63,363 nucleotides of DNA from Fluviispira vulneris (GTDB lineage: Bacteria > Bdellovibrionota_B > Oligoflexia > Silvanigrellales > Silvanigrellaceae): NCBI RefSeq assembly GCF_014281055.1, contig NZ_JACRSE010000008.1, positions 1 through 63,363 on the forward strand, given 5' to 3'. Each line of letters begins with the position of its first letter. Positions within the stretch are counted from its first letter, which is position 1. Below the pieces are notes generated by a model. It had not been told where the DNA came from, did no database searches, and saw nothing but the letters and a program-made list of their open reading frames with translations. A program made the position numbers and the translations under genes. This document shows positions 9,849-60,345 of this stretch, one piece after another.

Positions 9849-9864
9849 GGGGAACGCGTTCCCC
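9849..9864. promoter_or_regulatory. parS: parS-like centromere site, copy 1
   Basis: GGGGAACGCGTTCCCC is a perfect 16-bp palindrome 70 bp upstream of parA. An identical site, with matching flanking bases, lies inside the 3' end of parB (11505-11520). Identical palindromes at both ends of parAB are what one expects of ParB binding sites. An inverted pair (AGCGTCT near 9730, AGACGCT near 9822) flanks the region to its left. Confidence 0.7.
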
Positions 9865-9933: not shown

Positions 9934-10809
9934 ATGGGAAAGATTTTGACTGTAACAATCCAAAAAGGGGGCTCGGGAAAAACAACGTGCGCTGTTAACC
10001 TAGCCTCATGTCTTGCTTATTCTGGAAAAAAAGTTCTTTTGGTGGACCTTGATTATCAAGCAAATGCTACTGAATTGTTGAATGTTCGTAGTCGTGAATT
10101 AAAATCAGAACAATCTGTAGCTAATGCAATTTTAAAAAAAGTTAATTTTAAAAAGTTTGCAGTGAAAACAAATGTAGAGAATTTAGATTTACTACCAAGT
10201 TCGACAGCTTTAGAGGAAATAGTTTTACGTCATACAGGAAAGCCTGAACAGCTTTTCTTATTGGCAGATGTTTTAAATGATGTTCGGAATAGTTATGATT
10301 TTGTCATCATTGATACAAATCCGAATCCTGATTGCCTTTTTCAGTCAGCACTTCGTGAGAGTGATTTTTACTTGGTCCCAATGTTTGCTGAAAACGACGT
10401 GATTGACGGGCTAGCAATGGTTGTTGGCAATGCCGAAAAAATAAAACAATACTACAATTCAAATCTAAAAATGCTTGGATGTGTAATTCAGAAATTCGAT
10501 AAAAAAAGCGCATTCCAATTAGCAGGTGAAAAGCTTCTAAGAAAAATAGGTAATGAAAATGATATCCACATTTTTGAAACTATTATTCCATTTTCTCAAA
10601 TGATTTATGGCGCATCGATGAAACATCAAGCACTAATTATTTATAAAGAAAAAAGCCCAATTTCAAAAGCATATTTGAGCCTAGCTGAAGAAGCTCAAAA
10701 ACAGATTGATTTAGCACAGAAAGAAATTACAGGAGCAACTTCTAAATTAGAAATTAAGAAAGAAAATTACAGTTTAAATTCTATCGAAATAGAGGATCTT
10801 GAAATATGA
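9934..10809 (+). CDS. parA: ParA partition ATPase
   Basis: 291 aa. Deviant Walker A motif KGGSGKTT near residues 10-17, then LLVDLDYQANAT (A') and VIIDTNPNPD (Walker B). This is the MinD/ParA family ATPase that moves plasmid copies apart on the nucleoid together with ParB. AGGAGA lies before the ATG and the stop overlaps the parB start (ATGA), so the two are translationally coupled. There is no N-terminal DNA-binding extension, so it is of the short type, and the promoter would be repressed by ParB through the parS site upstream. Confidence 0.92.
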   Translation: MGKILTVTIQKGGSGKTTCAVNLASCLAYSGKKVLLVDLDYQANATELLNVRSRELKSEQSVANAILKKVNFKKFAVKTNVENLDLLPSSTALEEIVLRHTGKPEQLFLLADVLNDVRNSYDFVIIDTNPNPDCLFQSALRESDFYLVPMFAENDVIDGLAMVVGNAEKIKQYYNSNLKMLGCVIQKFDKKSAFQLAGEKLLRKIGNENDIHIFETIIPFSQMIYGASMKHQALIIYKEKSPISKAYLSLAEEAQKQIDLAQKEITGATSKLEIKKENYSLNSIEIEDLEI

Positions 10810-11636
10810 GTACTATTAGTCAAGCGATTGAAGCTGAAAAATTAAGTAGATTTGCTAGCGTTGTTTCTAATTCTGATAGACTAAATACTGTTTTACTTTA
10901 TGAAAAAGCTGCTGAAGAAAATAAAACGGTGGCTTTAAATGTAAATCAGATAAAATTAAATGAAAATATTAGAAACAGAATTGATATTAGTAAACCTGAA
11001 TTTTTGGATTTAAAGAATAGTATTGCAAGTGAGGGAGTGATCCAGCCAGTTCTAGTTGAGGTTAGGAGAAACATTGATGGTGATGATTTTGAACTAATCG
11101 CTGTCGCTGGTCATAGAAGAATCTTAGCATGCAAAGAACTTGGTATTGAAAAAATTAAAGCTAATCTTAAAGTTTACTCATCTAATTCTTCAAAACGAAC
11201 TGAACATGCTTTAATTGAAAATTTACTACGTGAAGACTTGCATCCTATTGATGTAGCTGAGGGCTACGCTGATCTAGTTGCGCAAGGATGGGATGCTGAC
11301 GACATAGCGAAAAAATTTAGTCGAGATAAAAAATATATTAAAAATATAATAAAAGTTGGTCAGTGGCCAATAAAAGCAAGAGAGTTAATCAAAGAGTTCC
11401 CTGAAAAATTCAGCCTGCGTTCTCTTTGCAATATTTCCAAAAAAAAGTGGGATAGTGAAGAAAAGCTTTTAGACGAGCTTAAATTTATTTGCGGTTTAGT
11501 AAAAGGGGAACGCGTTCCCCCAAGACAAAAAATTACGAGTGAGAAATTTAGTAAATATATTTCTGAAAATAAAATAAGCGATTATGAAAAAAACTTAATA
11601 GAAAACGCGTTAAAATTTTTTGGGTTTAAATTTTAA
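10806..11636 (+). CDS. parB: ParB partition DNA-binding protein
   Basis: 276 aa. An N-terminal ParB/Srx domain (VNQIKLNENIRNRIDI, GVIQPVLVEV, AVAGHRRILACKELGI), the conserved ENLLREDLHPIDVAEGY box near residue 140, and a helix-turn-helix (WDADDIAKKFSRDKKYIKNIIKV). ParB proteins bind parS and stimulate ParA. A parS-like palindrome lies inside its own coding sequence. The gene stops 4 bp before the convergent terL stop, with no terminator visible between them. Confidence 0.92.
   Translation: MSTISQAIEAEKLSRFASVVSNSDRLNTVLLYEKAAEENKTVALNVNQIKLNENIRNRIDISKPEFLDLKNSIASEGVIQPVLVEVRRNIDGDDFELIAVAGHRRILACKELGIEKIKANLKVYSSNSSKRTEHALIENLLREDLHPIDVAEGYADLVAQGWDADDIAKKFSRDKKYIKNIIKVGQWPIKARELIKEFPEKFSLRSLCNISKKKWDSEEKLLDELKFICGLVKGERVPPRQKITSEKFSKYISENKISDYEKNLIENALKFFGFKF
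11505..11520. promoter_or_regulatory. parS: parS-like centromere site, copy 2 inside parB
   Basis: Same GGGGAACGCGTTCCCC palindrome as at 9849-9864, here encoding part of KGERVPPRQ in ParB. The identity extends to flanking bases on both sides. Confidence 0.7.
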
Positions 11637-13605: not shown

Positions 13606-14211
13606 TTAATTAAACATGTGGCCAGTTTCTTTAATATTTTTATCCATATCTAATTTTAATCTACGCATACATTCAACTGGATCATGTTTAAATTCATCGA
13701 GAATAACTCTTCGTTCTGGCGTGTCAGGAGGTAAAACTTTAAGTATTAATGTCGCCATGTTGTTCATATTTCCTTCCAGTGTATTTACTTTTTCTTCTAA
13801 CACCGAAACGTTTTCTTCCAACTTTATTACTCGCTCCTCATCTGCTTTTGAGTCCATTTTTTCGTGAATTGACATTTTTAGTTCTGATTCAATATATTTT
13901 TTAATTTTAGACCCATATTTGAACATCCCAGCTTTAAAATTTACATCTTTTGTTTTCATTTCTTCCTTAGTAGCCATGCAAATCAATGCACCTTTTTGTA
14001 TCATTTCTTCTCGCCATATTGAAAATGTAACGAAATGGATGCCGTACTCTTGAAGATCTTTGATGCTAATTGATTGCCAGTCTGTAGGTTTTAAAGATTT
14101 AGTGTATTTGTCAAAAAAAAGTCGGGAATTTTTGCTTGCGCATGAAATATTGAGATTTCTATCTAAATATTTTCTCATGTTTTCATAGTTTTTTGATTTA
14201 GAAACAGCCAC
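13606..14211 (-). CDS. DNA-binding-like coiled-coil protein next to the TGTCCCA array
   Basis: 201 aa starting at GTG 14211 with GGAGGA just upstream. Residues 30-80 may form a winged helix (KPTDWQSISIKDLQEYGIHFVTFSIWREEMIQKGALICMATKEE); residues 115-155 are a coiled coil (VIKLEENVSVLEEKVNTLEGNMNNM). Its upstream region is the double array of TGTCCCA repeats, so it likely binds them and controls itself. A partition adaptor, replication control protein or packaging protein are all possible. Confidence 0.55.
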   Translation of the reverse strand: MAVSKSKNYENMRKYLDRNLNISCASKNSRLFFDKYTKSLKPTDWQSISIKDLQEYGIHFVTFSIWREEMIQKGALICMATKEEMKTKDVNFKAGMFKYGSKIKKYIESELKMSIHEKMDSKADEERVIKLEENVSVLEEKVNTLEGNMNNMATLILKVLPPDTPERRVILDEFKHDPVECMRRLKLDMDKNIKETGHMFN

Positions 14212-14278
14212 CGATTCCTCCGTGAATTTTCGATTGTCCGTGAAACTTTTATATTTTATATGTACACATTATGTCAAA

Positions 14279-14465
14279 TGTCCCATTTTTGTCCTATTCA
14301 TTGATCCACGCTTTGTCCCAAATTTGTCCCAGATTTGTCCCAACGGACATGTCCCAAGCCAAAAAAATATACTTTGTAACATGCTAATATCGTTAATCCA
14401 CATGTCCCAAATTTGTCCTAAATTTGTCCCAAATTCTGTCCCACGTTTGTCCCACGTTTGTCCCA
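14279..14465. repeat. twelve TGTCCCA repeats in two 11-bp-spaced clusters
   Basis: TGTCCCA (two copies TGTCCTA) starts at 14279, 14290, 14314, 14325, 14336, 14350 and then at 14403, 14414, 14425, 14437, 14448, 14459. Most steps are 11 bp, one helical turn, with a 53-bp step between the two groups of six. The gap contains a TATATT-like -10 sequence on the minus strand. The layout is like the parC centromere of plasmid R1, where two groups of 11-bp repeats flank the par promoter. It is not a CRISPR array. Confidence 0.85.
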
Positions 14466-14598
14466 AATTCAGATATTAAATATTTGATATTATTAAATTA
14501 AAACTCAAAAATCTTACCTTATAGTATATCTATTCTCTAACTACCTCTGTGAAAAGCAAAAACTACGTTAAACAACATCGCCTCTGGCTCGTTGTTGT

Positions 14599-14629
14599 AA
14601 TCGCTGAAAAAAACTTTTTTTCAGCGATT
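14599..14629. terminator. long hairpin, probable bidirectional terminator
   Basis: AATCGCTGAAAAAAA (14599-14613) and TTTTTTTCAGCGATT (14615-14629) are perfect 15-nt arms around a single base. A T-run follows on the plus strand. No gene reads into it from the left on the plus strand, so the transcript it ends is unclear. Confidence 0.6.
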
Positions 14630-14950
14630 ATTTTTTAGACAGTGCTAATAAAATAATTTTGATATATACGATATTTTTGTTATTTATATAAATTATATCA
14701 ATATATTGTCTCTTAAAGACTAAAAAAGCTTCACTTCTGAGTCAGCGTTAATATTTGTGTGTTCAGACATTTCAGATCCGAGGTCACGATAGCCCCAAAT
14801 TTTTATTTTCCTCTTCATTTTAAGCCAGCGTTTCAAAAAATAGGTACAAACATAGCCCCAGCATTTTAAAATGTTTTAGAAGGGCTTAAAATGATTATGC
14901 TTTTTTTTGTAGCACAATATAAAAGAATCTTGTCTTTTCTTCTTATTTAA
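14630..14950. other. non-coding stretch upstream of the Phd-VapC locus
   Basis: I see no ORF with a ribosome site here. There is an incomplete copy of the late motif (TTTAGACAGT at 14635-14644), a weak hairpin with AGCCC at 14854-14858 and GGGCT at 14882-14886, and long AT runs. Confidence 0.4.
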
Positions 14951-14993: not shown

Positions 14994-15236
14994 ATGCACG
15001 TAATTAATATGCACGAAGCAAAAACAAATTTATCTAGATTGATTGAAGAGGCGATAACCGACGGAGTTGGGTTTATTATAGCTAAAGCCGGGAAACCTTT
15101 AGTGACCGTGGAACCAATTAAAGAAGAAAAGCGCAAAATAGTTTACGGATTAATGAAGGGAAAAATTAAAATCTCTGATGATTTTGATGCACCATGTGAT
15201 GAAATTAATAACATGTTCTATGGTGACTATAAATGA
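14994..15236 (+). CDS. Phd/YefM-type antitoxin
   Basis: 80 aa. Begins MHVINMHEAKTNLSRLIEEA, the Phd/YefM DNA-binding domain, followed by GFIIAKAGKPLVTVEPI. The C-terminal tail (VYGLMKGKIKISDDFDAPCDEINNMF) matches antitoxins paired with PIN toxins. AGGAGG lies upstream, and the stop overlaps the toxin start. Confidence 0.85.
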   Translation: MHVINMHEAKTNLSRLIEEAITDGVGFIIAKAGKPLVTVEPIKEEKRKIVYGLMKGKIKISDDFDAPCDEINNMFYGDYK

Positions 15237-15610
15237 AGATTTTGTTAGACACGCATATAATAATTTGGATTTTAGAAGACTCAGAAAAATTATCAAAAAA
15301 AGCGCGCAAAATTCTTGATAATGCTGACGAAGTTTTTATTAGTTCAGTTTCAGTCTGGGAAATGATGATAAAAATGAATTTGGGAAAATTAGATATAGAA
15401 ATAGACGATATAAAAAGCATATTTAAAAAGACAAATTTTATTGAGCTACCTTTAAAATTTGATCATATTCTGTCATTAAACGGATTACCCGATATACACA
15501 GAGATCCATTTGATCGAATACTAGTTGCTCAAGCTCTATCTGAACCATTGAGACTAATAACAGCAGATCCTTTAGTTAAAAAATATTCTGATTTAGTTGA
15601 GTTAGTTTAA
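15233..15610 (+). CDS. vapC: VapC-like PIN-domain ribonuclease toxin
   Basis: 125 aa. PIN domain with acidic sites in MKILLDTHIIIWILED (Asp6), SVWEMMIK (Glu), and the DPFDRILVAQAL and ITADPLV motifs. PIN toxins cleave tRNA or rRNA. Start overlaps the antitoxin stop by 4 bp. With its antitoxin it would keep the element in the host population. Confidence 0.88.
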   Translation: MKILLDTHIIIWILEDSEKLSKKARKILDNADEVFISSVSVWEMMIKMNLGKLDIEIDDIKSIFKKTNFIELPLKFDHILSLNGLPDIHRDPFDRILVAQALSEPLRLITADPLVKKYSDLVELV

Positions 15611-15643: not shown

Positions 15644-16069
15644 TCATTTTTTCTGCAACGTCAACTGCCATTCGTAGCCCAATACATTCAAAATATCTGT
15701 AAATTTCCCCAGCGACGGCTCACGTTTTCCTTCTTCATACTGTGCATATGAATTTTGTCCCGAGCCCAATTCTAACGCTACACGAGACTGAGTTAAACGC
15801 TCATTTTTTCGTAATTTTTTAAACAATAATGCAGTTACATAACGAGGTTCAAAGAATTTTACTGAGAAATTATTGTCATCAAAAATCTCAATGCTAAAAT
15901 CGTCGTCAGTTGCTTTTTCTTTTGAAACTAATTTCAAAATATCCAGTATTTGATTGTTCAATTTTAAAAATAATTCTTCTTTAGTTTTTGCAATCTCTCT
16001 GATGTCTAGCAATTCTAATTTACAAATCCAAACATCGCTCTCAAAACCGTAGAATCCTGATATTTTCAT
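15644..16069 (-). CDS. orphan XRE/HicB-like antitoxin
   Basis: 141 aa from the ATG at 16069 (AGGAGG 5 nt upstream; a GTG at 16075 is an alternative). The N-terminal half resembles the HicB partial RNase H fold (MKISGFYGFESDVWICKLELL); the C-terminal half is an XRE helix-turn-helix (LRKNERLTQSRVALELGSGQNSYAQYEEGKREPSL). No toxin gene lies beside it, so it may be a free regulator or an anti-addiction factor. Confidence 0.65.
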   Translation of the reverse strand: MKISGFYGFESDVWICKLELLDIREIAKTKEELFLKLNNQILDILKLVSKEKATDDDFSIEIFDDNNFSVKFFEPRYVTALLFKKLRKNERLTQSRVALELGSGQNSYAQYEEGKREPSLGKFTDILNVLGYEWQLTLQKK

Positions 16070-16094
16070 AATCACCTCCTATTCTAAAAATTCT

Positions 16095-29176: not shown

Positions 29177-30258
29177 CGTCAGTTGATAATGTTGTCGAAG
29201 TTAATATCACTAAACAATCATCATTCGTAAAGGAAAAAAGTTTTAATATTCCGTTAATTTTAGGATTTAATTCTTTGCCGGTTTTTACAACTGATAATCC
29301 AGTTTTAACATTCTCAGAGCCGAGTGAGTTGTTAGATACAAAAATCGGTTTTAAATCAACAGATAAAGAGTATCTAATTGCGCAAAATATTTATGCACAA
29401 AGTCCATCTATATCGCAATTTATGGTTGGTAAACGCTGTGTTAGTTCTATTAATTCAGATCCTACTAAATCAGTTTATAAAATAAACGACGATTTAGAAC
29501 TGATTAATAAAGCTAACAATTCTTGGTATGCTCTATTTTTAGCTGATTTTGACGAAGAAAAAGATTTGCTCTTAGCTGCAAAATGGATTGAGGCTAGCAA
29601 AAATAAAATTGCATCGTTCAGAACTACAAACAGAGATATTTTAGACGCAACTAAATTAACAGATATATCAAATAAATTATCTAATATTGGATTTAATAGA
29701 TCTATGTTGACGTATCATACGACAGCAAACGAGTTTCCTGATGCTGCAATTCTAGGAAAATATCTATCTAAAAAAGCTGGGACATATTGTCTAGCACATA
29801 AAGGTCTTGAAAGCATATCTGCGCAGAGTTTGATAGAAAAAGAATTTAAATCGTTGCAGGCGGCAAATTGTAATGTTTATACAGATATTTTAGGAGTAAA
29901 CTCATATCAAGACGGTCGAGTTTTGCATAAAACAACAAATTTTATTGATAATACTATCGCCGAGGACTATCTAAAATCTGAATTACAGTCTCGAATTTTT
30001 GGAGCATTAAAGTCTGAAGACGGAAAAATTTCTTTTGATGATGATGGCCTTGAAATCATCGCAACACAAATTAAATCAGTTCTAAGCCAATTTGAAAAAG
30101 ATAAAATAATTCTTAAAAACTGGGATGTAAATGTACCAAAATTAAATGAAATATCAAAAATTGATAGACCAAAAAGAGAATTAAAAAATGTTAAATTTAA
30201 CGCTGTTTTAAATGGCGCAATACAAAAAGTTGTAATTAACGGAACATTATCTCAATAA
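29173..30258 (+). CDS. tail sheath protein (DUF3383)
   Basis: 361 aa. Begins MTSVDNVVEVNITKQSSFVKEKSFNIPLILG and contains the DUF3383 features KEYLIAQNIYAQSPSISQFMVGKR and WYALFLADFDEEKD, with a final KNVKFNAVLNGAIQKVVINGTLS strand. This family makes the contractile sheath, so the phage should be a myovirus. Confidence 0.85.
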   Translation: MTSVDNVVEVNITKQSSFVKEKSFNIPLILGFNSLPVFTTDNPVLTFSEPSELLDTKIGFKSTDKEYLIAQNIYAQSPSISQFMVGKRCVSSINSDPTKSVYKINDDLELINKANNSWYALFLADFDEEKDLLLAAKWIEASKNKIASFRTTNRDILDATKLTDISNKLSNIGFNRSMLTYHTTANEFPDAAILGKYLSKKAGTYCLAHKGLESISAQSLIEKEFKSLQAANCNVYTDILGVNSYQDGRVLHKTTNFIDNTIAEDYLKSELQSRIFGALKSEDGKISFDDDGLEIIATQIKSVLSQFEKDKIILKNWDVNVPKLNEISKIDRPKRELKNVKFNAVLNGAIQKVVINGTLSQ

Positions 30259-43107: not shown

Positions 43108-43386
43108 TTACTTCAGTAAAGATAGAAAATCATTCTTATCTTTTATTACCTCTTGCTTCATATTATCTGCCGTACTAGCACCCTCGACTTTATTTTCTCT
43201 CGACAACATATCTAGCGCATAATTCATTAACCAAATTGCACGGTCTGCCTGAGATTTTTGACCTCTCGGAAAATTAATTTTTGAGCTATTGAACGATGTT
43301 TTAGCATTCTTAATAAAATTTAATACGTCAGAGTTTTCTTCCGAGTCGGGTAGTCTCATTTGATAAAATTTTTTTTCTTCACTCAT
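43108..43386 (-). CDS. ParR-like partner of the actin-like protein
   Basis: 92 aa. It starts within the ParM-like stop codon (ATGA), the order found in parMRC operons. Contains FYQMRLPDSEENSDVLNFIKNAK and RGQKSQADRAIWLMNYALDML, compatible with a small helical or ribbon-helix-helix DNA binder, then a polar tail that could touch the filament. Assignment rests mainly on position and size. It would bind the upstream TGCATAAATA repeats. Confidence 0.6.
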   Translation of the reverse strand: MSEEKKFYQMRLPDSEENSDVLNFIKNAKTSFNSSKINFPRGQKSQADRAIWLMNYALDMLSRENKVEGASTADNMKQEVIKDKNDFLSLLK

Positions 43387-44381
43387 ACAACTGCTACCTT
43401 CACGCTCGAGTTGCCGATATCGATGCTTACATGTTTGTAGTTTGATTTTAGCTTAGAAAGTCCTAAAACAACACTAAACGTATGATCTAAATCTTCAACC
43501 AGCTCGGTCATCAAAATAATGCTATATCCGTTACCTTTTGCGATCTCTTTTAATACTGACATAAATACATGATCTTTTGCTGCTCCCCCAGAGACTACAA
43601 TATTTTTTGCTCTGTCTTTGTAGCGAGCGTTTTTATTTAAAAGCTCGCCAATTACAGAACGTATAAATTGCCTTGCCGCTGTTTCTTTTTCTTTTAAGCA
43701 ATCAATTCTTTTACCGTTCATTCCATTCTTTTCTGGCATGGTTCCTAGCTGCCACGAATTAATCGCTTCACTTGAAGATAAATTTTGTTGATCAGAAAAA
43801 ACTTGGATAGCCCCTGTAAGTCCTTCTACTCGCGCGTACGAATCGGGTAGGTTTTTGCCATCTACTTTACTTGCTTGTTGCCAGTCACCATGGCCTATGT
43901 GCCAGTATAAAAATGTTTTTGCATCAAGTGGAATGTTAAGCATAGACGCTAAAAACTCATACGCAATTGTTGGTTCCTCTTGGATAATAATTTCACAACT
44001 TTTCCAATTTGAGTCCGTAGCTTTGTCTTTAAAACGGATGTTTGCAACTGTTTCTTTAAGGAGGGCTAATTTATTTCTTGCGAGGGTATTATCGCCTACC
44101 TGGTCTCTAAATTGATCCATAAACTGGAAAGGCACGCTCATAGCAAGCGAAACAACATGCGTCCCTTCTCCCAAAGCGCGAGCAAGTCCTGCTTTTAACA
44201 ATGTCTGATAGTGGTCACTCTCTAAAGTACCACCAAAAATGCGTGGGCTATGAGGATTCAGGGTTTGCGCTAACTCTCCGACCACAGTTTCAATTCCCTT
44301 GTCATCAATTACTATTGATTGTTTATTTAGCAATTCCTTTTCTTTAGGTGCTGAGCAGATAAAACTAGGTAGAAATTCCAT
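43383..44381 (-). CDS. parM: circularly permuted ParM/Alp-type actin-like segregation protein
   Basis: 332 aa. Residues 1-95 match the part of ALP/ParM proteins that normally follows the first strand pair (EFLPSFICSAP, TVVGELAQTLN, LAMSVPFQFMDQFR). Connect-1 is EEPTIAYEFLAS (135-146), a phosphate-2-like loop is LYWHIGHGDW (158-167), the adenosine motif is IVVSGGAAKD (261-270). The phosphate-1 motif SIDIGNSSVKVAVV, normally at the N-terminus, is the last 14 residues (319-332). AAAGGAG lies 5 nt before the ATG and an in-frame TAA lies upstream, so no N-terminal copy is lost. The usual Asp of phosphate-2 seems replaced by His161. Likely forms filaments with ATP for segregation. Confidence 0.85.
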   Translation of the reverse strand: MEFLPSFICSAPKEKELLNKQSIVIDDKGIETVVGELAQTLNPHSPRIFGGTLESDHYQTLLKAGLARALGEGTHVVSLAMSVPFQFMDQFRDQVGDNTLARNKLALLKETVANIRFKDKATDSNWKSCEIIIQEEPTIAYEFLASMLNIPLDAKTFLYWHIGHGDWQQASKVDGKNLPDSYARVEGLTGAIQVFSDQQNLSSSEAINSWQLGTMPEKNGMNGKRIDCLKEKETAARQFIRSVIGELLNKNARYKDRAKNIVVSGGAAKDHVFMSVLKEIAKGNGYSIILMTELVEDLDHTFSVVLGLSKLKSNYKHVSIDIGNSSVKVAVV

Positions 44382-44403: not shown

Positions 44404-44539
44404 GCATAAATATTTTAGCTTTAAAGTGTAAAATCTGTTTATTGCATAAATAAACAATAATAAAAGCATAAATATTTATTCTTATAAACATAAATAAATT
44501 TAATTGCATAAATATAGATTTTATATTTATGCATAAATA
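44404..44539. repeat. parC: six TGCATAAATA-type repeats, candidate parC centromere
   Basis: GCATAAATA starts at 44404, 44444, 44466, 44506 and 44531, with a variant ACATAAATA at 44488; spacing is mostly 18-25 bp. The last copy lies in the palindrome TATTTATGCATAAATA (44524-44539). The array is directly upstream of the ParM-like gene, the place of parC in R1-type systems, and probably also covers the promoter. Confidence 0.7.
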
Positions 44540-52833: not shown

Positions 52834-52836
52834 GTG

Positions 52837-54375
52837 ATGACAAATTATGCATATTTCAAACTAAAAGCTGATTACAGTTCTCCAAAAAATCAAATAAAAC
52901 AAACAATAATAGAGCAAAACAAACAACGTGATGAGTCAAAAATAGTATCGGGACTACCCTCCGAATTGCTCGCCGTGTTCCTGTTATCTCAATCAAATCG
53001 AGATTGTGAATTGCAATTTAATTCACAGGGGAAATTCCATAGTATACAACTGCAAAATATAGATAAATTAGGCCGAAAATTCGCGGATGTTTTGATCGGC
53101 GTTGAGCTTAACGAGCATGTTGTCACACGAGAGATGCAGCTGCTGAATTCTCAAGTCATCAGGGCTCGAGGTGCGCCTTTAAAAAAATGCGCGATAGACG
53201 TTCTCGTGAAATCGTATGCGACGTTTCGTGAATGGTTTGTCAGATCAAAATCAGAAAAAATGAGTTTGAGAGATTTAATTTCTGCAATTAATAAAGATAA
53301 CTCAGCAAACGGCAAACAGAATTTGAATGTATTAATGCAATTATTACTGTTATCAAAAGTTGAGTTGTATTCGTCTCAAGATGACAAAATATTATTACCA
53401 ATGTCCCGTTTGTTTACTGTTGTATCTAGTGAGGCAGACGCTCAGGAGGCACTCAGATCGTTGATTAGAGAGGCTAGAGACAAGAGCGAATCAAAAAAAA
53501 GAGGCGGTATAAAAAGCGGCAGACTAATGGACGTTTGCAAAAATATTTTTGTAGATTTTTCTGGCAGTGCATATGAGCGACTTTTTTTAGCGCACACTAA
53601 AATGACAAAGAAAGGGCTTGTAGCGACAGGTTCATTCTTTAGATATGATTTGTCCCTCGGTAATGCAGAAGCCCGTCTCTGCGCTCTGCTAGACATGCAT
53701 AGGCCATATCTTCGAGAGCACAACACTGACGGATCAATCACACAGCTCACACTCGCGAAAACGTTTTCTCTAAATTCTATTGTTGCGCTCACAGGACAAA
53801 CTACTGAATCAAAAAAGGATCCACGTCGTTTTAAAGAAACATGCAGGGTTGCTGCTTCAACATTTGGCGCAATTGCTTATAGTATTAGCAATTTTTCTAT
53901 TGAGTATCAAAAATTTATAGACCCTACCCAAAAATCAACATCAGAACCTTTTGCGGAAAATATAGGGGGGGATCAGAACCTTTTGCGGAAGAACTCAGAA
54001 CCTTTTGCGGAAGAAAATGATAAAACTCAGAACCTTTTGCGGAGCTTTTCAGAACCTTTTGCGGAAACAGCCCCAAAATGTTCAACTCTAACAACAACAA
54101 AAAAGCCTTTAGTATATATAAGTAATCTTAATATAGTAACTACTAGTATCCCAAAAATTTCAGATCAGCAGTCCGAAGACTCAAAACCTCAACTTTCAGA
54201 AGACATCAAAAAATTCATCGACTCATTTCCGCCAGTCCCCAAAAGACGTGAATACGCCCGTATTAGAAAACTCGATTCTTTTGATGAATACGAAAAAGAA
54301 ATTCGATCATCACCTGGATTTTTTAATTTCACGCGCAAATCATCATTAAAAAACAGCATAGCGTCTAAAAATTAG
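52837..54375 (+). CDS. putative plasmid replication initiator with in-gene iterons
   Basis: 512 aa from ATG 52837 (GTG 52834 also possible; AAGGA upstream). The first 370 residues are a mixed helical domain with no family I can name with certainty; FVDFSGSAYERLFLAHTKM and AEARLCALLDMHRPYLREHNTDGS are notable. Then five iterons (53941-54065) are translated as SEPFAE or QNLLR, followed by an AT-rich region and a basic helical end. Position, upstream control region and internal iterons point to the plasmid replication initiator. Confidence 0.65.
   Translation: MTNYAYFKLKADYSSPKNQIKQTIIEQNKQRDESKIVSGLPSELLAVFLLSQSNRDCELQFNSQGKFHSIQLQNIDKLGRKFADVLIGVELNEHVVTREMQLLNSQVIRARGAPLKKCAIDVLVKSYATFREWFVRSKSEKMSLRDLISAINKDNSANGKQNLNVLMQLLLLSKVELYSSQDDKILLPMSRLFTVVSSEADAQEALRSLIREARDKSESKKRGGIKSGRLMDVCKNIFVDFSGSAYERLFLAHTKMTKKGLVATGSFFRYDLSLGNAEARLCALLDMHRPYLREHNTDGSITQLTLAKTFSLNSIVALTGQTTESKKDPRRFKETCRVAASTFGAIAYSISNFSIEYQKFIDPTQKSTSEPFAENIGGDQNLLRKNSEPFAEENDKTQNLLRSFSEPFAETAPKCSTLTTTKKPLVYISNLNIVTTSIPKISDQQSEDSKPQLSEDIKKFIDSFPPVPKRREYARIRKLDSFDEYEKEIRSSPGFFNFTRKSSLKNSIASKN
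53941..54065. repeat. five 17-bp iterons inside rep, candidate oriV
   Basis: TCAGAACCTTTTGCGGA at 53941, 53973, 53995, 54027 and 54049. Spacing is 32, 22, 32, 22 bp, that is about three and two helical turns. Copies 1, 3 and 5 are read in frame as SEPFAE, copies 2 and 4 in another frame as QNLLR, so selection is on the DNA. The following 54075-54160 is AT-rich and could melt. Confidence 0.85.
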
Positions 54376-57487: not shown

Positions 57488-57507
57488 GGCCAAACAAATG
57501 TTTGGCC
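57488..57507. promoter_or_regulatory. palindrome at the first start of the O-like gene
   Basis: GGCCAAACA-AA-TGTTTGGCC is a perfect 9-bp-arm inverted repeat that contains an ATG at 57498. It would hide that start in RNA or serve as an operator. No T-run follows. Confidence 0.5.
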
Positions 57508-57596
57508 TACCGACGAATACGAGACGTATTAGCTACGCATCAGCTCAGAGCGTAGCACAAGGATTAGGAATTGCAACAGCAAATAAAGGAGTGGCT

Positions 57597-58643
57597 ATGT
57601 CATCAGGATCGTTTATAAAACTATCATACCCCCTCAGTAGAAAATTAGGAATCCCAAAATCTTTGGTATTACAGAAAATAATTGATTGGGTTTCTGTAAA
57701 TAAAAACAAATCAAACATGAAAAAAGGGAATGCTGTCTGGGTAAAACGTTCTGCGCAGGAGTTAGCTCAGGATTTAGACGGCAATATGTCAGCGCGTAGT
57801 ATTGAGCGCCATTTGTCTGAGCTTGCAAACGAAGGTTGGATCATAAAAGAGAATTTTAACAGAAATAGTTTTGATAGGACTACGTGGTACACAGTTAACG
57901 GGCGTTTAGTAAGCATTGCGTTAAAAGAATGGAACGCAGAACAGAGCGACAAAATGTCGTCTTCAGATAACGATCAACTGTCGGAATCTGAAACCGACAA
58001 ATTGTCGAAAAATTTAAATTCATGTGCCGACAATCGATCGGAATCTGAAACCGACAATCTGAGTGCAGTCGGTACGCAAATTGGCGAATCAGAATTACGC
58101 AACAGTTACGATTCTCCCAACAATATAGTAATAGATAAAGAATATAAAAAAAGAATAGATGAAGAACAGATAAATATTACAGAAAATTTTTTAGACTTAA
58201 AAAAGACAAAAATCAGAGTTGTGAAAACCAATGAGAAAAAATTAGACGAAAGATCGGCTCAATTACTCAAATCTGGAATTGACGCATACGTAAAAGCGTA
58301 CGAGCAACGCTACAAAGCAAAGTTCCTAGATTTCGCAACTCTCAATCGTTCAATACAGCAAATAATAAAAAAAATGGGCAAATCGTTTTCTGAACAAAAT
58401 TTAATTGATTGCGTGAATTGCTATATGCGCTCGCAAAATTCGTGGCATTTGACTAAAGGCCACTCTCCAATCTACCTCGCTGGTGACATTCAAAATATTT
58501 TTGCAGCAACACAAAATAAAAACGTCATCAAAACACAAACGCAGGCTCGTCACAGCGATTTATCAAGTGCGATTGATCAGTCTATCGCAAATGCAATGGA
58601 AGCTCTTAGAGACGAAAAGAACAGTGATATTTTTGATGTTTAA
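57597..58643 (+). CDS. lambda O-like replication initiator
   Basis: 348 aa from ATG 57597 (AAAGGAG upstream; an in-frame start at 57498 has AGGAG but lies in a palindrome). Winged helix at about 40-100 (VWVKRSAQELAQDLDGNMSARSIERHLSELANEGWI), then a polar linker whose DNA holds CGACA repeats, then a C-terminal domain (AKFLDFATLNRSIQQIIKKMGKSFSEQNLIDCVNCYM). Like lambda O it would bind an origin inside its own gene and load helicase. Probably the lytic initiator. Confidence 0.7.
   Translation: MSSGSFIKLSYPLSRKLGIPKSLVLQKIIDWVSVNKNKSNMKKGNAVWVKRSAQELAQDLDGNMSARSIERHLSELANEGWIIKENFNRNSFDRTTWYTVNGRLVSIALKEWNAEQSDKMSSSDNDQLSESETDKLSKNLNSCADNRSESETDNLSAVGTQIGESELRNSYDSPNNIVIDKEYKKRIDEEQINITENFLDLKKTKIRVVKTNEKKLDERSAQLLKSGIDAYVKAYEQRYKAKFLDFATLNRSIQQIIKKMGKSFSEQNLIDCVNCYMRSQNSWHLTKGHSPIYLAGDIQNIFAATQNKNVIKTQTQARHSDLSSAIDQSIANAMEALRDEKNSDIFDV
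57947..58057. repeat. CGACA/TGTCG cluster inside the O-like gene, candidate lytic origin
   Basis: Seven CGACA or TGTCG boxes in 111 bp: CGACA-AAA-TGTCG (57947-57959), TGTCGG and CCGACA (57979-57999), CGACAA-A-TTGTCG (57995-58007), and CGACA at 58028 and 58052. TCGGAATCTGAAACCGACAA occurs twice (57981, 58038). This is the place of ori in lambda O. Confidence 0.6.
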
Positions 58644-59419: not shown

Positions 59420-59689
59420 ATGTTGTTTATACTAAACGCATCGAAAGAAAAATGGTTCAAAAAATATAGAAGCTTCACTTGCACGCCTGAAATGTGTCCT
59501 GCATGCAAAATAACGGCGTGGGAAGATGCTGTATTCCAATATTGGATAACAAAAGATCATGTGGGCTTTTTTAGAACATGCGAAAAGTGCAGTAAATTTC
59601 AAACTGTATTAACTCCAAGAAATATCAAAGAACAACAAAAATTAAATCGATTGGTTTTTAATCTAACATGCGAATATAGGGAAATATAA
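59420..59689 (+). CDS. cysteine-rich small protein
   Basis: 89 aa with CTPEMCPAC and CEKC, likely one zinc site. Its stop overlaps the start of the terminase-like gene, so the two are probably coupled. Function unknown. Confidence 0.55.
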   Translation: MLFILNASKEKWFKKYRSFTCTPEMCPACKITAWEDAVFQYWITKDHVGFFRTCEKCSKFQTVLTPRNIKEQQKLNRLVFNLTCEYREI

Positions 59690-60345
59690 TGCTAAAATTC
59701 AATGAATATATGAATAATACTTTTAAAGACCTGCATGAACACAGCTTTTTAAGCGATTTATTTAGTAATTTAGACAATTTTAAAGATGATTTATTAAATA
59801 AAAAATCACCACGATTGATTGTGAATATGCCGCCAAGGCATTTAAAAACCAGAACGTTAGCGTTGGGATTTCCTTTGTTTTTAGAATCATTTAAGAAGCT
59901 AAAAATCGCTGTATTTACGCATAACTATCCAAATTCATGTTATCTTAAAAATATTAGTCTAGAAATATCAGAATATAATGAGGTTTATTATTATTTTATA
60001 GGGCATGAAATCGAGAAAGAAAAATTTGACTTAATTATTATAGATGATCCTTTTTATTTCTATAGTGCATATAAATGCGAATATATAAATAATTATGTTA
60101 GTAATTTATTAAATAAAAATTTAAATAAAAATGGCGGTTTTATTCTAGTTGAGTCAAGGTATTCTGTTAATGATTTAACTAGCTATCTACTTAAAAATTA
60201 TAATGATTTTAAACTATTAAAATATAGAGCACTTGATATAGCCGATCAGCATTTTTCTTTAGAACATTTTCACAGAATAAAAAATAATTGCAGGCAAATA
60301 TTTGAATCGCTTTATCAGCAAGAGCCAGTATGTGAGGAAAAATAA
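59689..60345 (+). CDS. orphan terminase-like ATPase without nuclease domain
   Basis: 218 aa. It aligns with the ATPase part of TerL (11641-13068): KKSPRLIVNMPPRHLKT (Walker A at 48-54, where TerL has PPRHGKS), FDLIIIDDP (Walker B near 113-121), VESRYSVNDLTSYLL (TerL: QTRWHEDDLSGYLL) and a final FESLYQQEP (TerL: NAQYQQDP). The RNase H nuclease domain is absent. It lies in the early region far from the packaging genes. It may be a motor for another step, or a decayed copy that is still intact as an ORF. Confidence 0.7.
   Translation: MLKFNEYMNNTFKDLHEHSFLSDLFSNLDNFKDDLLNKKSPRLIVNMPPRHLKTRTLALGFPLFLESFKKLKIAVFTHNYPNSCYLKNISLEISEYNEVYYYFIGHEIEKEKFDLIIIDDPFYFYSAYKCEYINNYVSNLLNKNLNKNGGFILVESRYSVNDLTSYLLKNYNDFKLLKYRALDIADQHFSLEHFHRIKNNCRQIFESLYQQEPVCEEK

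Follow-up and report, generated by a model that had tools for sequence, protein, structure and literature searches.

A two-group array of 7-bp sites upstream of a coiled-coil protein gene in a phage-plasmid family: a candidate plasmid-maintenance site

What binds a dense array of short direct repeats lying beside terminase genes and the gene for a small coiled-coil protein, and what is the array for? The question is raised by the 63,363-bp stretch of DNA analyzed here (the window), which is the entire contig C8 of its source genome and which holds 12 TGTCC[C/T]A sites within 187 bp, arranged as two groups of six. The initial annotation compared this arrangement to R1 parC and offered a centromere, a packaging site or a dense operator as its function. 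A replication origin was absent from those options, and it proves to be the main rival, close behind a centromere-like role.

The array and its promoter

Group 1, proximal to the gene at 13606–14211 (14279–14356, plus strand), has sites starting at 14279, 14290, 14314, 14325, 14336 and 14350; group 2, distal to it (14403–14465, plus strand), has sites at 14403, 14414, 14425, 14437, 14448 and 14459. Ten of these are exact copies of TGTCCCA, all on the one strand, and those at 14290 and 14414 complete the six plus six; the first description of two groups of six TGTCCCA repeats is right in its count, but these two sites read TGTCCTA. The steps between sites are 11, 24, 11, 11 and 14 bp in the left-hand group and 11, 11, 12, 11 and 11 bp in the right-hand group. 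With 7 of the 10 within-group steps at exactly 11 bp, the claim that all sites are 11 bp apart on a single face of the DNA holds for the right group but, for the left, only approximately. The 53-bp step separating the groups was confirmed, and the two-group, parC-like architecture holds up.

Outside the array, the sole other exact TGTCCCA in the 63 kb is at 29778, on the opposite strand; 2.78 copies would be expected in the window, and the largest count among 100 shuffles was 8. Coincidences of the same 6-mer at a lag of 11 numbered 27 in the region 14201–14600, where 2000 dinucleotide-preserving shuffles never exceeded 8 for any lag from 9 to 29, and runs of at least three identical 7-mers at 10–12-bp steps are, in the window, confined to the array. 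The array is real and not a product of chance. A coding repeat was rejected because an 11-bp period shifts the reading frame, and a non-coding RNA was rejected on an Rfam search of the window that gave no match at the gathering threshold.

The spacer between the groups (14357–14402) is 46 bp long and AT-rich (72%). The promoter-like sequence formerly assigned to this gap was not upheld, as scan matches there are no better than chance: the 1.7-kb region has nine promoter-scan matches against 7.3 ± 2.7 in shuffles, and the only match touching the gap, CGGACA-18-TATACT at 14344–14373 (9 of 12), begins before the last left-hand site. The presumed promoter of the 13606–14211 gene, read by eye and a better −35/−10 pair than that match, lies between the array and that gene (14248–14277, minus strand), with TTGACA at 14277–14272, 18 bp, and TATAAA at 14253–14248, one base past the most gene-proximal repeat; it is missing from the scan because the scanner demands a T at the last position.

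A phage-plasmid family and its 201-residue protein

The window is a phage-plasmid. It encodes portal, terminase and head genes together with ParA and ParB, ParM-like, RecT-like and O/DnaD-like genes, and one reading frame stays open across the end-to-start join of the contig, as it would in a circle. A 218-aa ORF at 59689–60345, distant from the real TerL, matches terminase large subunit families. The majority of the window's genes are collinear with plasmid pGTC16762-2 of Pigmentibacter ruber (AP029161; 67,953 bp, circular) and with contig G010:C10 (67,601 bp); judged by this gene order, the three are one phage-plasmid family. The 140-kb plasmid pGTC16762-1 (AP029160), from the same P. ruber strain as pGTC16762-2, shares few window genes, among them an XRE gene, a relative of the 201-aa protein discussed below and a TerS fragment; it also has a type II cas1-cas2-cas9 set. 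A further phage-plasmid relative of the same clade, G007:C62 (62,907 bp, with a 15-bp terminal overlap), carries genes for TerS, TerL, ParA with a small partner, a ParM-like pair, portal and tail-type proteins, and a Cas3 I-F type gene at L055:15695-19228.

The gene at 13606–14211 (minus strand) encodes a protein of 201 aa (P0001), with an N-terminal domain of about residues 1–118 that is presumed to be the repeat reader, a coiled coil and a conserved C-terminal tail. No meaningful match to it was found in Pfam, PHROG or NCBIfam. Pfam matches taken up to E 0.1, and up to E 1 for its relatives P0004–P0006, were at chance level only and included no KfrA family; the protein-family searches gave no Rep family match, and matches in the PDB were due to chance or mostly of coiled-coil type. 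AlphaFold models from two-row alignments are of low confidence (mean pLDDT 51.9 and 50.1) and helical after the N-terminal part.

Full-length relatives are encoded by pGTC16762-1 (P0004), pGTC16762-2 (P0005) and G010:C10. Shorter chromosomal relatives that lack the C-terminal part are found in G010:C4, G011:C3 and G013:C1, where by our reading they adjoin tRNA-like sequence, and G000:C1 has a relative read with one stop. The short chromosomal relatives (L032, L033 and L034, from G013, G011 and G010) have a conserved WKLRSxF C-terminal end and no array. Searching at class level revealed relatives in 4 of 58 genomes, all from one genus group, and the phylum-level search covered the same 58. The plasmid search returned only two P. 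ruber records, and among the viral contigs the only matches were G010:C10 and the contig of the window itself; the genome contigs collection yielded none, and the phage search gave none at E 0.01 with P0001 and one match at E 0.9 with P0005. In the literature searched on Silvanigrella plasmids and phages, phage-plasmid iterons and partition, 11-bp repeats, pSK1 and StbA, we did not find this array or protein family described.

Conservation of the array in related elements had been proposed as a check, with its absence from them as one half of a refuting condition, and the arrays are there: a two-group array with a period of about 11 bp lies directly upstream of the relative's gene in all three related replicons that carry a relative of the protein, and in none of the four chromosomal relatives. 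In the eight upstream regions, lag-11 six-mer coincidences number 22–71 in the four from plasmids or phage-plasmids and 0–3 in the four chromosomal ones. The pairing of array and coiled-coil protein, first seen in the window, thus extends to its relatives. The repeat words themselves all differ. In gene orientation, the window has TGGGACA at −254, −243, −232, −220, −209 and −198, then at −145, −131, −120, −109, −85 and −74. The word of pGTC16762-1 is [A/T]CTCACA, at −290, −279, −268, −256, −245 and −234, then at −181, −168, −157 and −80, an in-register list that omits other near-matches lying between, some of them inverted. TACTACG in pGTC16762-2 stands at −310, −299, −288 and −277, then at −220 and −209, and inverted at −188, −177, −156, −145 and −134; closer to the gene are copies that differ by one base. 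TGCTAAC in G010:C10 stands at −296, −285, −274 and −263, then at −206 and −195, inverted at −172, −161 and −140, then at −128 and −93. In all four replicons the presumed promoter has a repeat immediately upstream of it, either exact or with a single mismatch, and the promoter-like elements after the last repeat are similar in pGTC16762-1 and G010:C10 and weaker in pGTC16762-2.

Two geometries can be recognized in these positions. The window and pGTC16762-1 have in common the series 11, 11, 12, 11, 11 followed by a step of 53 bp, the window's group 2 being identical to the pGTC16762-1 series, and the spacers of the two align at the equal length of 46 bp; pGTC16762-2 and G010:C10 share steps of 11, 11, 11, then 57, then 11, followed by inverted sites. 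Over the N-terminal 118 residues of the protein, the window and pGTC16762-1 are 41% identical, pGTC16762-2 and G010:C10 49%, and all other pairs 24–31%; the pairs that share an array geometry are the pairs of highest N-terminal identity, in a comparison of four replicons with words and register picked by eye. Over the C-terminal remainder, identity is 70% between pGTC16762-1 and G010:C10, 49% between the window and pGTC16762-2, and 29–42% in the other pairs. By these identities the proteins are mosaics, their C-terminal halves shuffled relative to the N-terminal types. Since each N-terminal type goes with an equal series of steps in different words, which is the weightiest single finding here, the array appears tied to the protein and to its N-terminal part, and on this evidence it very probably belongs to the 13606–14211 protein and not to TerS.

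In G010:C10, as in the window, such runs of 7-mers at 10–12-bp steps are confined to the array, and pGTC16762-2 has a single short run besides its array; pGTC16762-1 has extra runs, one a perfect TTCTACGGATC series on the upstream side of the array and another just upstream of its ParA gene. At L009:7391-7453, about 240 bp upstream of the second array, pGTC16762-1 carries six perfect TTCTACG units at 11-bp steps; TTCTACG is the word of pGTC16762-2 with one base changed, and the series may be the leftover of a recombined module. Next to the window array, at 14598–14630, is a perfect inverted repeat of 16 bp that contains A and T tracts, and pGTC16762-1 has a 15-bp inverted repeat resembling it (L009:7508-7538).

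Packaging, partition, operator or origin

The TerS and TerL genes adjoin the array in the window, and a packaging (pac) site bound by TerS had been put forward. Packaging is disfavored by the position of TerS in pGTC16762-2, where the coiled-coil gene keeps the array beside it at a distance of about 4 kb from TerS, and by G007:C62, whose TerS and TerL are 63% and 77% identical to the window's and whose 62.9-kb contig yielded no such array, no relative of the 201-aa protein and no XRE homologue. The words differ, moreover, although the TerS proteins of pGTC16762-2 and G010:C10 share 70–71% identity with that of the window. A pac site was rejected because the array does not travel with TerS; we consider it highly improbable. 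What does accompany array and protein in all four replicons is an XRE-type HTH protein gene (HTH_3; 15644–16075, minus strand), and the three are jointly absent from G007:C62. The toxin–antitoxin pair (PIN toxin, Phd-type antitoxin) that lies between XRE and the array (14994–15610, plus strand), for which no counterpart was found in the three relatives, is probably outside the module.

Two partition-type loci stand elsewhere in the window. Genes for ParA and ParB, a separate ParABS (9934–11636, plus strand), have beside them a perfect 16-bp palindrome, GGGGAACGCGTTCCCC (copy 1 at 9849–9864, copy 2 at 11505–11520), which is a probable parS: it lies by the same genes in pGTC16762-2 (16101 and 17763) and has no copy in G010:C10 or pGTC16762-1, both without this ParB. 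The ParA of G010:C10 is a different one, and its partner gene encodes 107 aa. Between the window and pGTC16762-2, ParA is 99% and ParB 91% identical; since ParA is so much better conserved than most of the genes they share, the ParAB cassette has probably been exchanged recently. The array as a parS of ParB was rejected: the array words of the window and pGTC16762-2 differ despite the 91% identity of ParB, and ParB has its probable parS in GGGGAACGCGTTCCCC. At 43108–44381 (minus strand), a ParM-like gene (43383–44381) is followed downstream by a small ParR-like gene (43108–43386); relatives of this locus occur in G010:C10 and G007:C62, and pGTC16762-2 gave no match. Membership of the array in a ParMRC system was also rejected, the ParM-like gene having its own GCATAAATA repeats upstream, at 44404–44539. 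With ParABS and its palindromes and a ParM-like pair already present in the window, one more system for segregation would be superfluous.

The repeats could be a dense autoregulatory operator and no more, the many sites steepening self-repression with no role in segregation or replication. In its favor, a repeat adjoins the presumed promoter in four replicons of four, and only one exact site falls outside the array in the window. We nevertheless consider it unlikely: twelve sites over 187 bp, the most remote of them, in the distal group, 254 bp from the start codon, exceed what an operator needs, as does the kept length of the spacer, and the chromosomal relatives have no upstream array.

More weight attaches to a replication origin, in which the array would be the iteron set of the prophage-plasmid (or a handcuffing copy control) and the 201-aa protein its initiator or controller. 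The unit of XRE, array and protein is common to the four replicons while their partition genes differ, and the non-coding stretch between the XRE and protein genes is long (853 bp in pGTC16762-1, 710 bp in pGTC16762-2) and about 30% GC. The best evidence for an origin, which also speaks against a centromere-like role, comes from G007:C62, where the slot running from the portal side to TerS is taken up by three direct repeats of 22 bp, by the gene of a 708-aa primase-helicase (DnaG-zinc-finger/AAA_25) and by that of a 397-aa protein whose HTH_36 match is weak. In G010:C1 a primase-helicase 44% identical to this one is followed by a Rep_3 gene, so that the insert in G007:C62 has the look of a module for plasmid replication.

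Like theta-plasmid iteron origins, the array lies by the gene of a presumed DNA-binding protein, with an AT-rich region, in a plasmid replicon. Known iteron plasmids, however, have iterons of 17–22 bp and two-domain Rep proteins; the spacing here is about half the usual, no Rep family was matched and an exact DnaA box was not found in the region, and 11-bp spacing with a small coiled-coil protein better suits centromere-type or KfrA-type binding. The window also has other replication candidates. An O/DnaD-like initiator is encoded at 57498–58643, and TCAGAACCTTTTGCGGA repeats at 53941–54066 (five copies at steps of roughly 22 and 32 bp, four exact over 18 bp and one more identified by reading the sequence) lie inside an ORF of 513 aa at 52834–54375. 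This ORF has no family match, and no relatives were found in the replicons and plasmids searched; by our reading it sits where relatives carry a replication-type gene, and it looks like an initiator gene with internal iterons. Rep_3 is absent from G000, AP029160 and AP029161. When 55 proteins, of 151 annotated features, were searched in pGTC16762-1, no Rep family appeared among the 25 listed of 39 matched families, and the other large candidate there, a 665-aa protein near ParA, has weak primase matches only. We regard an origin as a real possibility, if on balance a doubtful one.

The core of the interpretation we consider likely: the array is the private site of the 201-aa protein, autoregulated, within a module that maintains the plasmid state. 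That the maintenance is centromere-like is, by analogy, our leading account, held tentatively and at slightly less than even confidence. The N-terminal domain would dock on each 7-bp site, once per helical turn, and the coiled-coil part would join neighboring and distant copies, so that the two groups and the spacer of roughly five turns could fold into one nucleoprotein complex. Such a complex would cover the gene's promoter, giving autorepression, and would serve as a maintenance site for the prophage in its plasmid state, with copies positioned or clustered in the centromere-like manner of R388 StbA-stbDR or RA3 KfrA; its own word would give each replicon its own identity. Of the three functions first offered, packaging falls away, and operator and maintenance site remain and probably both apply.

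A wider proposal, which we make a shade more cautiously still, is that the family could be a new plasmid-identity module with a swappable N-terminal reader, a swappable coiled-coil half, fixed spacing and a word rewritten in each lineage, working either as an NTPase-free segregation system beside ParABS and ParMRC or as a prophage replicon with 11-bp iterons. If this is true, words particular to each lineage would let sister prophages share a cell. Nature has in effect run a swap experiment in these four replicons (geometry kept, word changed, two reader types, tails exchanged), which would allow tests of how specificity shifts jointly in a DNA-binding protein and the repeat array it reads and of how related prophage-plasmids avoid incompatibility, pGTC16762-1 and pGTC16762-2 being from one strain; and they come from a bacterial group for which our literature search found little plasmid biology.

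Comparison with known maintenance systems

The array and its protein can be likened to the R388 StbA and RA3 KfrA systems by analogy, as a member of none of the systems compared here. In R1, parC consists of two repeat groups around a spacer, and the window array resembles parC/ParR in having two groups of 11-bp repeats flanking a spacer. The repeat unit of R1 parC is given as 11 bp (PMC9426499). Unlike R1 ParMRC, the window array has no ParM beside it or directly downstream, the ParM-like gene being at 43.4–44.4 kb.

The single-protein systems pSK1 Par, RacA and RocS offer a likeness in the protein, which shares with them a presumed DNA-binding domain, a probable coiled coil and the lack of an NTPase, as described for pSK1 Par and RacA (PMC11500499). 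They have a MerR-type winged helix and a disordered C-terminal part, which may set them apart from the 201-aa protein.

KfrA proteins (RA3 of IncU, IncP, R388) combine an N-terminal DNA-binding domain with a coiled coil, autoregulation through a repeat operator and a part in maintenance, as we propose here; that of RA3, in the account of PMC7783346, is an autoregulating alpha-helical protein which aids stability, and it uses five 9-bp repeats at its own promoter, of which three are direct and two face the other way. The mixed orientation resembles the arrays of pGTC16762-2 and G010:C10, and the RA3 repeats are five and overlap the promoter, against the window's 12 in two groups.

The stbDRs of R388 (IncW), like the window array, form two groups of direct repeats with an 11-bp period upstream of the binder's own gene; PMC3098194 describes five plus five sites at the stbABC operon and a requirement for them in plasmid stability. 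Measured on NC_028464 under that site definition with up to two mismatches, by which 8 of the 10 described sites were found, the steps are 11, 11, 11, then 52, then 11, 11, 22, and the last site starts 42 bp before stbA, the record naming only stbB and the stbA and kfrA genes being assigned by position and length. The word is a different one, TTGCATCAT, and StbA, of 141 aa, is not detectably related to the 201-aa protein: hhalign of the 201-aa family gave a probability of 0.1% against StbA and 0.3% against R388 KfrA, each a weak test of a small profile against a single sequence. The near-equal 11-bp period, and an inter-group step of 52 bp in R388 against 53 bp in the window, around proteins of no detectable kinship, suggest a shared physical design.
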